Below, piece by piece: positions 7,539 to 15,789 of a stretch of DNA of 34,929 bases. The stretch spans positions 1 through 34,929 of IMG/VR virus record IMGVR_UViG_3300037071_000870, one strand, 5' to 3'. The notes under the pieces were generated by a model. That model made no database searches. It saw nothing but the letters and a program-made list of their open reading frames with translations, and was not told the origin of the DNA. Position 1 is the first letter of the stretch. The number at the start of each line of letters is the position of its first letter. Both the position numbers and the translations under genes were made by a program. The stretch is from a virus.

Positions 7539-8978
7539 CTATCCAAATATCTTCGCAAGCTCGGCCCCGGCTGGGCTTGGATGCTGGTTCAAGTCGGTGT
7601 TGCCCACCCACATACCATCGGTGAGGCCGTGATGTACGGGGAGCGGGTTGCTGTGTTCATCTACGTTGCGCACCAGATAGACCAGCGCGGCCAGTGCGTC
7701 ATAGTGGCCATAAACGCCTGATCGTGCAAACTCGCGGGCCCCAGTGTGCTTGCTTGACCAGATGCCGTAACGCAAGCAGCCGATCAGATGCTTGCACTTG
7801 GGGCTGACGTAGATTCGTCCGGTCGCTACCCATACCCGCACCTTATTGACCATCGCCTCCAGCGTGTCCTTGTTGGTCACCTGAAAGTACAGCCCGTCCT
7901 GCGTGCCCATCTGGGTAAGCATAGTCCCCAGCGAGTTGTCCGACACCCGGCGATATGGGGCGCCAAGCGCTGGCCACACATCAGCCTCTTTGTCCTTGAT
8001 CGCCTTAGCCAGTGAGTTGGTGGTCATGGTCGGGCCGTTCTCGATCACCTCTTCCTCCACCACAAGACGGGCGTTCAGGAAGTCGTAGTAGGCGAAGATA
8101 CAGGCCGAGAAGTCCCGCGTACCCAAGTCGAGCGCCGTGTATCTGTGCCAGTGCCTGCGGTAGTACTCTTCGATCGGCAAGTCTGTCTCGTACTCGTCTT
8201 TCCAGTCATGAACGATCTGCAGCTGATCATCAACTACGAACTCACACAGGCGCTCACGTCGGAACGAGACGGTATGCGCCCCGCCCGCCTCACGGATGGC
8301 CTTCTCTAATCTGCGCTCCCAGCCTGTCGTCTTGTCGTCGTGGATCGTCAGTGTCGTCGTCAGTCCTTTTGACTGCAGATCGCGGAAGATGCCGACATAG
8401 TCATGGTCTGCCGTCTTGGGCGGCGTGCTGCTGAAGATGATCGTCCCGCCAGTGGTAGAGCACATCGGGGACAGTACGGACAGATAGACATAGCTCAGGT
8501 CATCCATGAACCCGCCCTCATCCACCATGATGATGTGCGCCAGGCCACCCCGTTGATTGTCGGCCCGCTGGTTGTCAGTGCCTACGATGGTGATCGATGA
8601 GCCGTTCGGAAAGGTAATCAATCCTGCCTGAAGATTGATGTTGGGCTGCAGGCTCGCAGGGCAAGTCTTGAGGATCGCACGCAATGCGTTCTTGATGGCG
8701 CGCTTGATCTGCGTGGATTCCGGGCCGACGTAGTAAATGACCGACTCAGGGAAGCGCAGGCTGTATTCCGTGGCCACAGTCATCAGCGTGACTGTCTTTC
8801 CTGTCTGGCGGGCGCAATTCACACCATCCGCATCGACTTCTGGGTTCTTGATGGATGCCCATATCTTGCGGTGAATCACTTGCTGATGCTCGGCCAGTAG
8901 CCAATAGAGCGTAGCCTTTGCCCACAAGCTGGGTATTAGCTTGTCCGGCGGAGGGTTCTCTCGGTGATAGACGGCCAT
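7539..8978 (-). CDS. Terminase large subunit
   Basis: A 479-residue packaging motor. The ATPase domain has a Walker A variant ARQTGKT at 56-62, Walker B IIMVDE at 149-154 with catalytic Glu154, and the coupling motif SSTP at 183-186. The nuclease domain shows ALDLG (Asp284), an acidic cluster VVEEEVIE near 306-313 and GHYDAL (Asp427), matching the RNase H-like metal site. It cuts concatemers and pumps DNA through the portal. Its ATG overlaps the upstream stop by one base (TGATG). All key residues look intact. Confidence 0.95.
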   Translation of the reverse strand: MAVYHRENPPPDKLIPSLWAKATLYWLLAEHQQVIHRKIWASIKNPEVDADGVNCARQTGKTVTLMTVATEYSLRFPESVIYYVGPESTQIKRAIKNALRAILKTCPASLQPNINLQAGLITFPNGSSITIVGTDNQRADNQRGGLAHIIMVDEGGFMDDLSYVYLSVLSPMCSTTGGTIIFSSTPPKTADHDYVGIFRDLQSKGLTTTLTIHDDKTTGWERRLEKAIREAGGAHTVSFRRERLCEFVVDDQLQIVHDWKDEYETDLPIEEYYRRHWHRYTALDLGTRDFSACIFAYYDFLNARLVVEEEVIENGPTMTTNSLAKAIKDKEADVWPALGAPYRRVSDNSLGTMLTQMGTQDGLYFQVTNKDTLEAMVNKVRVWVATGRIYVSPKCKHLIGCLRYGIWSSKHTGAREFARSGVYGHYDALAALVYLVRNVDEHSNPLPVHHGLTDGMWVGNTDLNQHPSPAGAELAKIFG

Positions 8979-9301
8979 CAGGGGATGTCGGCCGGATTTT
9001 CGCCAAGCGCACCCAATAGCTGATCGCGGCTCTTGTCTGCGTGCGGGTCCATCGTGACTGTCACGTTTGAGCGCTCGGTTGGCCTGCCCTCAAGTCGTTC
9101 ATGCACCAGTTTGATGGCCTGCAGGTCACCGCCCTTCGCAAGGGTGATGGCAGACAGGTTGATCTGCTCCAACTGGGTAAGGGACGTGTGGTCAAGCTGC
9201 TGAAGTTGCGCGTCCGTGATCTGTGCGAAGTCATCGAGCGAGCTTGTAACTCCCCGACGCAGTACTTCTTTGGCTAGCAGCTCAAGCGTTTTCTTGCTCA
9301 C
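8978..9301 (-). CDS. Probable terminase small subunit
   Basis: A 107-residue protein directly upstream of and coupled to the large terminase. The N-terminal half is helical (KTLELLAKEVLRRGV). The segment AIKLVHERLEGRPTERSNVT resembles the C-terminal end of many small terminase proteins. It would recognise phage DNA and regulate the large subunit. A clear helix-turn-helix is not obvious, so the call leans on position and that motif. Confidence 0.7.
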   Translation of the reverse strand: MSKKTLELLAKEVLRRGVTSSLDDFAQITDAQLQQLDHTSLTQLEQINLSAITLAKGGDLQAIKLVHERLEGRPTERSNVTVTMDPHADKSRDQLLGALGENPADIP

Positions 9302-12295: not shown

Positions 12296-12438
12296 TTCTC
12301 ACCTCCTGTCAGCTTCTTGGCGAAGCGCTTGATCTGCTCTTTGTGCTCGGGCTTGCACCAGCCTTCATAGCGGACAAGCCCAAGAGCCTTTCGCGACTCT
12401 CGGGTTTTCTCCATACTTTTTGCGGCCTTGGTTTTCAT
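12292..12438 (-). CDS. Small basic hypothetical protein
   Basis: A 48-residue, Lys/Arg-rich protein (MKTKAAKSMEKTRESRKALG, then LVRYEGWCKPEHKEQIKRFA). Similar short proteins with a GLVR-E-W-PE-H pattern occur beside phage recombination genes. Its ATG overlaps the upstream stop by one base (TGATG). Nucleic-acid binding is possible from the charge but not shown. Confidence 0.65.
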   Translation of the reverse strand: MKTKAAKSMEKTRESRKALGLVRYEGWCKPEHKEQIKRFAKKLTGGEK

Positions 12439-12731
12439 CAGGACTTTCGGCGGCACGAAGTGCTGACTGTGCCGTAGCCGTAGCCGTTGCCGTTGCCGTT
12501 GCCGTAGCCGTCGCCGTTGCCGTAGCCGTAGCCGTCGCCGTTGCCGTAGCCGTAGCCGTAGCCGTAGCCGTTGCCGTAGCCGTAGCCGTAGCCGTCGCCG
12601 TTGCCGTAGCCGTAGCCGTAGCCGTCGCCGTAGCCGTAGCCGTCGCCGTTGCCGTAGCCGTAGCCGTAGCCGTAGCCGTAGCCGTAGCCGTCGCCGTTGC
12701 CGTAGCCGACAGGCCTATAAACGGCAGCCAT
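12438..12731 (-). CDS. Gly-Tyr/Asn/Asp dipeptide-repeat protein
   Basis: A 97-residue protein: eight leading residues (MAAVYRPV), one Gly plus 39 X-Gly dipeptides with X being Tyr (24), Asn (9) or Asp (6), and a ten-residue tail. The start at 12731 makes a TAATG overlap with the upstream stop, and the stop makes a TGATG overlap with the next gene, so this strand is very likely the coding one. The protein must be disordered or a repetitive solenoid. Tyr/Gly-rich repeats can self-associate. No function is known. The repeat can change length in 6-base steps without breaking the frame. Confidence 0.7.
   Translation of the reverse strand: MAAVYRPVGYGNGDGYGYGYGYGYGYGNGDGYGYGDGYGYGYGNGDGYGYGYGNGYGYGYGYGNGDGYGYGNGDGYGNGNGNGYGYGTVSTSCRRKS
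12471..12707. repeat. Hexanucleotide tandem repeat (NACGGC on the coding strand)
   Basis: 237 bases made of 39 imperfect 6-base units. Only the first base of each coding-strand unit varies, among T, A and G; C never appears. On the opposite strand the unit is GCCGTN, an Ala-Val codon pair in which the variable base is silent. Confidence 0.95.
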
Positions 12732-13048
12732 TACACACCCCATCCATCAGGCACAGGGATGCAGAAAATCTCCGAGCCGTCTGGCATCTCAACATCATGC
12801 GCCAAAGGCTTGAGTACGACCTTGTTGCTCTTCGGATTGGCGATCATGCCGTCAAAGCCAATCGACTCCCAGCGAAACACATGTACTGCATTGGAGATTT
12901 TCAGCCTGCCGTTTTCGCGAGTCACATCACCCGCAAAAATCCAACCTCGATCAACAACGACAATGGCACGCTTGCCCGTAGGCTTTGATACGCTATCGGC
13001 GCGGATGTATTGCACGTCATCAATCGTGATGGTTTGTGGCTTGGTCAT
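12731..13048 (-). CDS. Conserved phage hypothetical protein
   Basis: A 105-residue protein (MTKPQTITIDDVQYIRADSV, RAIVVVDRGWIFAGDVTREN, ending IPVPDGWGV). The VVVDRGWIFAGDV / VFRWESIGFDG pattern recurs in small phage proteins of unknown function. It is the first gene after the palindrome-bearing promoter at 13079-13106. AAGGA lies about 10 bases before the ATG. Confidence 0.75.
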   Translation of the reverse strand: MTKPQTITIDDVQYIRADSVSKPTGKRAIVVVDRGWIFAGDVTRENGRLKISNAVHVFRWESIGFDGMIANPKSNKVVLKPLAHDVEMPDGSEIFCIPVPDGWGV

Positions 13049-13078: not shown

Positions 13079-13106
13079 AGTATATGCAACCGGTTGCATA
13101 ACGCAA
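13079..13106 (-). promoter_or_regulatory. Leftward promoter with palindromic operator between -35 and -10
   Basis: On the leftward strand a -35-like TTGCGT (13106-13101), a 16-base spacer and a -10-like TATACT (13084-13079) are followed about 30 bases later by the start at 13048. The perfect 18-bp palindrome TATGCAACCGGTTGCATA (13083-13100) fills the spacer, the position where a dimeric repressor would block RNA polymerase. The -35 is weak, so activation is also possible. This site would head the block from 13048 down to the scaffold gene. The cognate regulator is unknown; the LexA-like, Cro-like and HTH proteins are candidates. Confidence 0.6.
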
Positions 13107-13109
13107 GAA

Positions 13110-13187
13110 CTATTTCAGGTTTATGTGCAGCCACCCTATCCACACTAGAGATAGGATGAGCAGGAGAAGGAAGATGCGAGGTGTCAC
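13110..13187 (-). CDS. Tiny single-span membrane peptide
   Basis: A 25-residue ORF with GTG start: VTPRIFLLLLILSLVWIG, then a short WLHINLK tail, almost entirely hydrophobic. The GTG is fused to the ninG stop in a GTGA overlap like other junctions in the block, which argues for translation. It ends just before the palindromic promoter. No family was recognised. Confidence 0.5.
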   Translation of the reverse strand: MTPRIFLLLLILSLVWIGWLHINLK

Positions 13188-13819
13188 TTGGTGAGCTCGC
13201 GCAGCAATTTTCGGTAGCGAGCTCCAATTGCGATGAGCTCGGTGTGCGTGTAGTTCTTCACTGTGTAGTCCTGTTCGAGCTCTTCCACGGCCTGAGCTCC
13301 GATGCGTTTTACGAGCTCAATGCGGTACATGATCGCGTTCGAGCTGAGCTCAACATTGCATCGGTAACATTGCAGCCACAGATTACGCTCATCGTAGCGG
13401 AGCCCTGGACGAGCTCCACGGCTTAGGTAATGCCCTGCCTGTGGCTTCCCGTCATGAGTGCCACAGGAAACGCAGCCAAGGCCCTTTGCACGGTCTCTAG
13501 CGACTACATATGCATTCACATCCCTCTGCGTGAGCTCGTGACGATGACCGAGAGTCATATTCTTCTGGCGGTATTCGGTGAGCTCACGGCGCTCCTTGCG
13601 TAAGCGCTCCGCCTTAGTATGGGCTTCTGCGCAATCAGGGCTACAGGTCTTGTGCCAGCTACTCCGGGGGATGAAGTACTCCCGGCAGGATTTGCACTTG
13701 CGCTGCTTTAGAGACTTCGGCTTGCGGCCCTTCGTTACTTCCTCAGCCTCTCGGGCCATTCCTTCATCGAAGCAACGGCGGCATTTTGCACTGATGGGCA
13801 GATCATGCTTGCAGATCAT
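13184..13819 (-). CDS. ninG: NinG recombination protein (lambda Rap family)
   Basis: A 211-residue protein matching NinG. The N-terminal MICKHDLPISAKCRRCF and CKSCREYFIPRSSWHKTCS carry Cys/His sets for zinc. The core domain has RDVNAYVVARDRAKGLGCVS, QAGHYLSRGARPGLRYDERN and LWLQCYRCNVELSSN, an HNH-like Cys/His centre, followed by a helical tail. Lambda Rap is a structure-specific endonuclease that cuts D-loops and Holliday junctions. The ATG at 13819 gives an ATGA overlap; a start at 13828 is also open. All ten places where its codons allow a GAGCTC hexamer use it (see the repeat entry). Confidence 0.9.
   Translation of the reverse strand: MICKHDLPISAKCRRCFDEGMAREAEEVTKGRKPKSLKQRKCKSCREYFIPRSSWHKTCSPDCAEAHTKAERLRKERRELTEYRQKNMTLGHRHELTQRDVNAYVVARDRAKGLGCVSCGTHDGKPQAGHYLSRGARPGLRYDERNLWLQCYRCNVELSSNAIMYRIELVKRIGAQAVEELEQDYTVKNYTHTELIAIGARYRKLLRELTK
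13193..13585. repeat. Cluster of ten GAGCTC palindromes inside ninG
   Basis: GAGCTC occurs at 13193, 13219, 13235, 13277, 13294, 13313, 13346, 13411, 13532 and 13580, each preceded by T or C. By eye I find only about seven more in the rest of the window. Seven encode Glu-Leu (GAG CTC) and three span Gly-Ala-X (GGA GCT C), so the hexamer is kept in two reading frames. Confidence 0.9.
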
Positions 13820-14136
13820 ACGAAGCACATCCCGCTGTCACAATGTCCAAAGAGAACGCCGTTTTGTTCCGACAAGTCGGCGTCTTCAAGAGGAATGCAG
13901 TCTGCGTGAAGGTATGCATTTGGATCACGCAATCTAATGCTGCGGTCAAATTGGATGGCTTGAGACCAATCTTCCGGCTTGTTTTCCTTGATATCCCGCC
14001 ATTCCTCTTGAGTATGGTTAGGGCAATTCCAGCAAGAGCTGCGCGGCGGGTCCGGCCAGATGTGTATGCCCAAGGCTCGCCAGTAGAGCCATCGCAGTAC
14101 CCTTCCGACAATCCCGGCTTCGCAAAGTGGTCGCAC
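13816..14136 (-). CDS. Orphan Cys-rich C-terminal domain of a PAPS-reductase-like phage protein
   Basis: A 106-residue frame from a GTG start. From about residue 23 it reads as the C-terminal part of phage PAPS-reductase-like proteins: DPPRSSCWNCPNHTQEEWRD, a conserved acidic/Trp segment, YLHADCIPL and a final SGMCFV. The nucleotide-binding N-terminal domain of that family is missing. Its stop overlaps the ninG start (ATGA), supporting this frame at the 3' end. At the 5' end another frame from ATG 14150 gives a plausible Cys-rich start (MNCKLCDHFAKPGLSEGYC), so a frameshift or recombination scar is possible. No strong ribosome site precedes either start. Confidence 0.6.
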   Translation of the reverse strand: MRPLCEAGIVGRVLRWLYWRALGIHIWPDPPRSSCWNCPNHTQEEWRDIKENKPEDWSQAIQFDRSIRLRDPNAYLHADCIPLEDADLSEQNGVLFGHCDSGMCFV

Positions 14137-14337: not shown

Positions 14338-14543
14338 TTCTTCTTCCCTCCAAGTGACCACACTGCATATCGAGCCCCAGACGGAGACCTCTCGTAGCGC
14401 GTCAGGATGTTGTAGCCGCGCTTTCGAAGGTCGGTGATGCGCTGGCTTGTGCAGGTAGTGCCGAACCGTTGATAGCCCGTTACCTGAGTCAAAGCCCCGC
14501 CGCACTTCATGTAAGCAAGGATGCGTTCGCATTGAGTTGTCAT
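14334..14543 (-). CDS. Small helix-turn-helix protein (HTH_39-like)
   Basis: A 69-residue protein. TQCERILAYMKCGGALTQVT, then FGTTCTSQRITDLRKRGYNI, matches the small phage HTH family in which two helices and a short wing (YAVWSL) make the whole protein. It is probably a DNA-binding regulator. It has 4-base overlaps with both neighbours. Confidence 0.75.
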   Translation of the reverse strand: MTTQCERILAYMKCGGALTQVTGYQRFGTTCTSQRITDLRKRGYNILTRYERSPSGARYAVWSLGGKKK

Positions 14544-14971
14544 CGCGTCACCATCTGGGCTTTGAACTTCGATAGGTAGTCATTCACGTTAGCTGGCATG
14601 GCTGTCGGTGTTCTGACTTCGTTACGCAGGGCCATGGCTTTGTCTGCCTTCTCCTGCTGCCTTATGGCCCATTCCTTGGCTTCCTCGCCCATGCTCATGA
14701 ACTTGTCTATGTTCTCAGAGCGGAAGATCACATCCAGGCTGTCGTGCTGCCGCCTGCCGTCCCACGGGTCAACCGCTACGCCCTCAATAGCTAGCATGAG
14801 GTTTTCAGGCGTGTGGCCGAGTTCTAGCTGGGTGACGATTACCTTGAACTTCATGGGGTCAAGGATTGAGCGTGGATGGTTGAGAATCATTTGCCAGTAG
14901 GCGAAGATGTCTTTGACCAGCGGCTCGTAGAGTTTGTCTGTGATGCTGAGTTGGTGCGGGCGGGCTCTCAT
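14540..14971 (-). CDS. Replication-protein-like phage protein
   Basis: A 143-residue protein. DIFAYWQMILNHPRSILDPM, an LGHTPENLMLAIEGVAVDPW segment and the following DSLDVIFRSENIDKFM match the C-terminal part of phage replication-initiation-like proteins, where YW-HPR-LD and AI-G-SP motifs recur. The N-terminal winged helix seen in longer relatives is absent. It could recruit host helicase or be an accessory factor (inference). It has ATGA junctions on both sides. Confidence 0.6.
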   Translation of the reverse strand: MRARPHQLSITDKLYEPLVKDIFAYWQMILNHPRSILDPMKFKVIVTQLELGHTPENLMLAIEGVAVDPWDGRRQHDSLDVIFRSENIDKFMSMGEEAKEWAIRQQEKADKAMALRNEVRTPTAMPANVNDYLSKFKAQMVTR

Positions 14972-15789
14972 GCTATGCCCTCAATGAATTTGATGCGATA
15001 TTGCTGATATTTTGACCGCTGATTTTCATTGCAGAACCGACGAAACGCGGATTCATGCAGCTCGCCATCTTCCATGGTTATGGAAGTCCCGCACATACCG
15101 CCTTTCCATGATCCCTTCTCCGGCCCCATTTCTTTATCAAAGCTTAGGTTGAGAGAGCGCACGACTTTCTGTCTGCAGAATAATCCCAGCCACTTGAAAT
15201 AACCCTCTCCGAACTTCCATGCACGCTCGTGAATTTGCGTGGTAACAACCACCCTTGTGCCGTCAAAGTCTTCGCACATGAATGACACTGCCGGACATTC
15301 CTCTTCTGCCTTGTGCTGTTCTTCGAAATTACTTCTTCCGCCCTTGTCTGACAACTGCGTGTAAAAATGCTCGCCAGCTCGACCGTACAAACTGAAGCGT
15401 ACAAATCTCCATTGCGTCCAAGGAAGAAACCAACTCTTTGACTGCGTTGTTTCACTATCATGAGTTTGTGCGCCTAGGAAAAGCTGCAGAAACCCGTCAT
15501 TCAGGCTGAAGCCATACTCACGCGGGAACGTTTCGTCATACCAGTTGCGGCCCATGCGTTCGACCGTAGCCTGATCCCACGAGGTGACAACATGGCGAAT
15601 AGCAAATGGGCTTAACAGGCTTGGCAAATTAATTCGGGCGCAGTACCCGAGCATGTAGATGGTCAATGTGTTGCATGTTTCTTCGTCATCGCCACCACCA
15701 CTTGACCAGACGCAGCGCCACGGATTCCAGCCTGCTTTTGCGTATGTGATAGGTCCAAAGTGTTTGTCATTATCGGTTAAGCGCCCCAT
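14968..15789 (-). CDS. Conserved phage protein of unknown function
   Basis: A 273-residue protein preceded by the strong ribosome site TAGGAGGGG. The opening MGRLTDNDKHFGPITYAKAG, the SGGGDDEETCNTLTIYMLGY segment, REYGFSL, then LPWTQWRFVRFSLYG and KGSWKGGMCGTSITM form a pattern I associate with a widespread phage hypothetical family. No enzymatic motif is evident. It is the first gene after the hairpin-rich gap, and its strong ribosome site suggests high expression. Confidence 0.8.
   Translation of the reverse strand: MGRLTDNDKHFGPITYAKAGWNPWRCVWSSGGGDDEETCNTLTIYMLGYCARINLPSLLSPFAIRHVVTSWDQATVERMGRNWYDETFPREYGFSLNDGFLQLFLGAQTHDSETTQSKSWFLPWTQWRFVRFSLYGRAGEHFYTQLSDKGGRSNFEEQHKAEEECPAVSFMCEDFDGTRVVVTTQIHERAWKFGEGYFKWLGLFCRQKVVRSLNLSFDKEMGPEKGSWKGGMCGTSITMEDGELHESAFRRFCNENQRSKYQQYRIKFIEGIA

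Follow-up and report, generated by a model that had tools for sequence, protein, structure and literature searches.

The DNA analysed here, called the window below, is a virus record of 34.9 kb (34,929 nucleotides). It comes from a podovirus-like phage, with a weak match to a P22-type portal and a match to a T4-type terminase. Its early region is lambdoid and contains ninB and ninG. The last of these genes carries ten copies of the hexamer GAGCTC, and the features of the window on which the argument bears are as follows.

7539-8978, minus strand: terminase large subunit (PF03237, E 5e-13).
8978-9301, minus strand: candidate small terminase just upstream of the large subunit, so named by position alone.
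12731-13048, minus strand: gene for a 105-aa protein; 55-70% identical proteins are encoded by some 80 or more viral contigs, mainly metagenomic ones.
13184-13828, minus strand: ninG (NinG/Rap), 214 aa, host gene of the array (PF05766, E 3.5e-43; phrog_171, E 8.6e-62).
13193-13351: dense core of the array, seven hexamers in 159 bp at the 3' end of ninG, adjoining a 135-bp non-coding gap.
13193-13198: GAGCTC 1, Glu-Leu, frame 0, three codons before the ninG stop.
13219-13224: GAGCTC 2, Gly-Ala-Arg, frame 1 (residue G202).
13235-13240: GAGCTC 3, Glu-Leu, frame 0.
13277-13282: GAGCTC 4, Glu-Leu, frame 0 (E183).
13294-13299: GAGCTC 5, Gly-Ala-Gln, frame 1.
13313-13318: GAGCTC 6, Glu-Leu, frame 0 (E171).
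13346-13351: GAGCTC 7, Glu-Leu, frame 0, followed by a second AGCTC.
13411-13416: GAGCTC 8, Gly-Ala-Arg, frame 1 (R140).
13532-13537: GAGCTC 9, Glu-Leu, frame 0 (E98).
13580-13585: GAGCTC 10, Glu-Leu, frame 0.
14540-14971, minus strand: replication-initiation-like gene, weakly matching the C-terminal part of phrog_16167 (E 1.2e-5, profile positions 187-270 of 315).

The original prediction for this DNA had been that ten copies of GAGCTC are packed into 393 bp of ninG, with about seven others in the remainder. Exact counting confirms both figures: among the 17 copies of the window, ten lie at 13193-13585, all in ninG, and seven elsewhere. It is also correct that every Glu-Leu pair (7/7) and every usable Gly-Ala-X site (3/3 GA[LPHQR]) of NinG is written with the hexamer, and that two reading frames are involved, seven copies being in codon frame 0 (Glu-Leu) and three in frame 1 (Gly-Ala-Arg/Gln). 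Only two permissive options are left unused in the gene, both in frame 2 (RSS and LSS). The repeat unit is an exact 6-bp palindrome, and successive copies are irregularly spaced by 26, 16, 42, 17, 19, 33, 65, 121, and 48 bp (range 16-121 bp). These spacings show no helical phasing, which was rejected. A tandem-repeat origin was rejected as well, given the irregular spacing and hexamer flanks that are 26-27% alike, as by chance. A pyrimidine had also been claimed to precede each site. On the plus strand this holds for 10/10 copies, but the same is seen in six of the seven copies elsewhere, so that this base argues weakly for a word of 7 bp.

Taken over the whole window, GAGCTC is not rare (17 copies versus 13.8 in dinucleotide shuffles), as would suit an accumulation by chance or biased codon usage. 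The array itself, however, has a Poisson log10 P of about -16 for ten copies in 400 bp. A codon-shuffled null, proposed earlier as a check, never reached about ten sites: shuffling ninG's own synonymous codons gave a mean of 2.6 and a maximum of 8 in 20,000 trials (10 observed), and synonymous resampling with the codon usage of the window a mean of 1.03 and a maximum of 6 in 100,000. Outside the hexamers, the codons of ninG are ordinary (six GAA and six GAG for Glu, CTC for 2 of 12 Leu, and likewise for Gly and Ala). Outside ninG, the window writes Glu-Leu as GAGCTC at 5 of 46 sites and uses the word at none of 24 GA[LPHQR] sites. Foreign codon usage and codon-pair bias are excluded by these two observations, and codon usage or a foreign origin of the gene was rejected on the codon nulls and the ordinary codons outside the hexamers. 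Moreover, IMG/VR metagenome 3300037119 contains a contig that matches the window without a difference for 10,390 bp. This second record argues against an assembly slip, and carries no information on independent evolution. A slip could not, in addition, have scattered hexamers over two frames while leaving the conserved NinG residues intact. Altogether, the probability that chance, codon-usage bias, horizontal gene origin or an assembly artefact accounts for the array is negligible.

The host gene itself encodes an ordinary PF05766 member. Because the invariant residues of the family are retained, NinG of this phage is probably still functional, as judged from its sequence. Comparison with relatives (34-47% identical; residue percentages weighted) shows nevertheless that the protein has been altered. 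Ten of its peptide sites are able to hold GAGCTC, versus 0-5 (median 2) in 101 NinG relatives that align at 34-46% identity, and the hexamers cover several residues that the family has seldom or never (E98 and G202, 0%; E183, 3%; R140, 5%; E171, 9%). Other residues under the hexamers, L172, L184, and G177, are conserved family residues that serve as anchors, and the hexamers look as if they had been built onto half-fitting conserved positions. It is thus the hexamer itself that is maintained, not codon usage or the protein, and the amino-acid changes were pushed by it. Since codon nulls fail and NinG was changed to fit the word, there is good support for the earlier proposal that a 6-bp DNA site is under selection. 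As a natural example of a DNA word that prevails over the choice of codons and of amino acids alike in a working gene, the array is unusually clean.

The proposed test of hexamer retention in relatives had a negative outcome for the NinG family. Setting the identical contig aside, 104 ninG genes, whose products are at most about 47% identical to this one, contain 0-1 GAGCTC each, and no comparable array of another word was found in them. The array as a conserved feature of the NinG family was accordingly rejected: its host gene is an ordinary member of NinG/Rap (PF05766), and the array is found in no other member. As all these relatives have 0-1 copies, it is confined to the lineage of this phage. 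Neither the viral and phage collections, searched with NinG and TerL, nor the genome collections, searched with NinG, yielded a close relative, the nearest being about 47% identical. Two ways in which the array might have travelled were also rejected. Around 79 relatives of the neighbouring gene 12731-13048, 688 kb contain 26 GAGCTC and no array; with regard to the structural module, nothing comparable was found at the 28 loci of portal relatives that represent the terminase/portal module. A distantly related Silvanigrella phage lacks the array too. A scan of viral contigs for GAGCTC triples returned, among the matches listed, mostly GAGCTC-rich genomes and repeat proteins. One contig (L118:7208-7285) has a 77-bp cluster of five GAGCTC that makes use of every frame of a short coiled-coil-like ORF, with none elsewhere in its 9.3 kb, and may represent a second GAGCTC array in an unrelated phage. 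At L048:6572-6645, five GAGCTC precede a terminase large-subunit gene by about 250 bp.

Arrays of other words were sought in phage DNA totalling about 2 Mb, as non-tandem palindromic hexamers in any gene, and as all words in ninG neighbourhoods. The GAGCTC array of ninG is the strongest non-tandem word array in this DNA. AT-rich TATATA runs aside, the next strongest palindrome class is TGCGCA, in several enterobacterial prophages. These prophage arrays contain 5-8 copies in about 130-250 bp versus 0.4-1.7 expected, exceed codon shuffles, and all lie inside the small-terminase gene (phrog_51) in two or three frames. In a dedicated TGCGCA scan, at least 33 of the 120 matches listed, including nearly all the top array-like ones listed, are in terS-like genes. 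Since the scans were aimed at arrays of this kind, the number of comparators gives no estimate of frequency. TGCGCA arrays of 5-10 copies, in two to three frames, occur just after the N-terminal region of phrog_51-type terS (L198:9668-9801, L218:9821-9954, L221:9684-9937, and L211:9815-9948; further loci in L202, L144, L140, L215, L318, L303, and L240), where they are probable pac sites. At the same place in terS, TGCGCA is replaced by TGCGAA in L146:8100-8160 and in L354 (terS of Yersinia phage vB_YenM_29.18), and another terS family carries six GCGAACC (L227:9291-9445). Co-evolution of the word and its terminase would be expected to produce such differences. The other genes of known function in which the scans revealed coding word arrays are mainly replication initiators. 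Candidate origins in initiator- or O-like genes are L186:3043-3143 (CAATCAA), L161:993-1091 (CCGCAC), L157:605-872 (GTTGGA), L224:470-756 (AGGGAA, in a phrog_16167 gene), L393:4663-4905 (AACCTT), and L339:5307-5520 (TGCGCA). Searches of the open literature by title and abstract retrieved nothing relevant, either for TGCGCA in connection with terminase or for phage GAGCTC palindromes.

With a probability of roughly 0.65, the ten GAGCTC can be proposed to form a cis-acting DNA array laid over ninG and read by a putative sequence-specific protein. This protein, presumably phage-encoded, would read the array hexamer by hexamer, with several copies bound at once, and the array would mark where it starts a DNA transaction. 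The irregular spacing without helical phasing fits independent binding of palindromes by a multimeric protein, as in small-terminase rings, and not a phased operator.

Of the roles open to such an array, a packaging start resembling that of P1 would be the most likely, with a replication origin a close second. The P1 pac site spans 161 bp inside pacA and has seven TGATCA/G hexamers; synonymous changes in it lower the P1 titre about ninefold (PMC10028697). The array of ninG likewise assembles short palindromic or near-palindromic hexamers within a few hundred bp (10 in 393 bp), held at the DNA level within a coding gene despite the coding constraint. It differs from P1 pac in its word, which lacks the GATC (Dam) site, in its larger number of copies and longer stretch, and in its location: P1 pac is in the small-terminase gene, whereas the present array occupies ninG and is separated from the terminase module by about 3.9 kb. 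With the TGCGCA arrays of terS it shares a palindromic hexamer in 5-10 copies, multiple frames, irregular spacing and few copies elsewhere. Those arrays, in contrast, use another word, are denser (mostly 7-30 bp apart), and lie in the small-terminase gene after the N-terminal domain. The original suggestion of a protein-binding cluster or packaging signal stands as the best reading, by close parallels (P1 pac and the TGCGCA arrays). The traits in favor of pac are those common to P1 and the TGCGCA arrays, namely an exact palindromic hexamer, independent spacing and mixed frames. Against it are the roughly 3.9 kb that separate the array and the terminase genes, and the lack of an array near the 28 relatives of the terminase/portal module. 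The product of 8978-9301, the candidate small terminase, has no family match and no match to the genes upstream of related terminases. On these analogies, assignment of the array as a P1-pac-like packaging start is tentative, at odds well short of even.

Several observations point instead to a theta-replication origin, bound by a phage initiator or a host protein and displaced into ninG, about 1 kb downstream of the initiator gene. The DNA-transaction module nearest to the array is the initiator-like gene 14540-14971, about 1 kb upstream, which has a weak profile match and whose product is 37.8% identical to a Xanthomonas phage replication protein. This gene is short and itself free of arrays, and blind scans placed coding word arrays in initiator- or O-like genes of other phages (L186, L161, L157, L224, L393, and L339). 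However, those arrays use mostly non-palindromic words, the present array is outside the initiator gene, and GC skew of the window indicates no clear origin. The likeness to the origin iterons of lambda O-like initiators is that of recognition sites repeated across an early-region coding gene; the iterons differ in their mostly non-palindromic words and in their location inside the initiator gene. Lambda iterons are also longer (18 bp) than the hexamer. Repeats larger than a hexamer in a consistent orientation, as in iterons, were not found, the unit being an exact 6-bp palindrome with flanks at chance level. Taken by itself, an origin is less likely than not, a little behind a packaging start. 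Because the word type favors pac and the position near the initiator favors an origin, the two roles are not yet separable.

An array of binding or methylation sites, for a host methyltransferase or a SeqA-like or activator-like protein acting ahead of a promoter that would lie in the gap following ninG, is improbable. GAGCTC is the specificity of a type II restriction-modification system (SacI), and the dense core, with its seven copies in 159 bp, adjoins the 135-bp non-coding gap, which has an 18-bp perfect palindrome. Nevertheless, no methyltransferase was found among the window proteins scanned (small ORFs only partly included), the array reaches about 400 bp into ninG, more than a usual operator, and the promoter scan did not list the possible promoter in the gap. 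The palindrome itself (13083-13100, TATGCAACCGGTTGCATA) lies between ninG and the next gene, within this possible promoter, and is operator-like. Still less credit can be given to a function at the RNA level, through pairing of the self-complementary hexamers in ninG mRNA. Eight of the ten hexamers pair with another hexamer in the predicted fold, but any palindromic word would do so, the stems barely extend past the hexamer, and the total folding energy of the mRNA is not unusual when compared to codon shuffles (z -0.96). Searches for known RNA families and tRNA gave no match.

Returning to a packaging or replication start, it may be speculated that start sites of a general but under-described type are in use among phages, made of 5-10 exact short words over a gene in any frame that its protein permits, the word changing between phages along with its reader. 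In the present phage, such a site would have moved out of the terminase and initiator genes to ninG and remodelled NinG for ten copies. In one version of this idea, the reader could be NinG, whose N-terminal zinc-ribbon-like region is extended in this phage. This generalization is doubtful at present, but the parallel TGCGCA/TGCGAA arrays of terS make it testable in laboratory phages. If the array is a pac or an ori, a simple statistic, the excess of a clustered word over the codon null, would reveal start sites in phages that lack annotation. How TerS binds pac is poorly understood (review PMC9611059), and words repeated exactly in many copies would supply a defined substrate for this binding.

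Other elements of the neighbourhood deserve mention. Close to ninG, the minus-strand gene 12438-12743 encodes a Tyr-Gly repeat protein, in which about 40 copies of the hexamer GCCGTA occupy 12471-12708. Repeats of ACGGCAA/CAACGGC words, similar to this GCCGTA run, are found near relatives of gene 12731-13048 in several phages. On the other side of ninG, 14968-15789 (minus strand) is a gene for an Acb3-family CBASS inhibitor (PF25187, E 7.7e-64).
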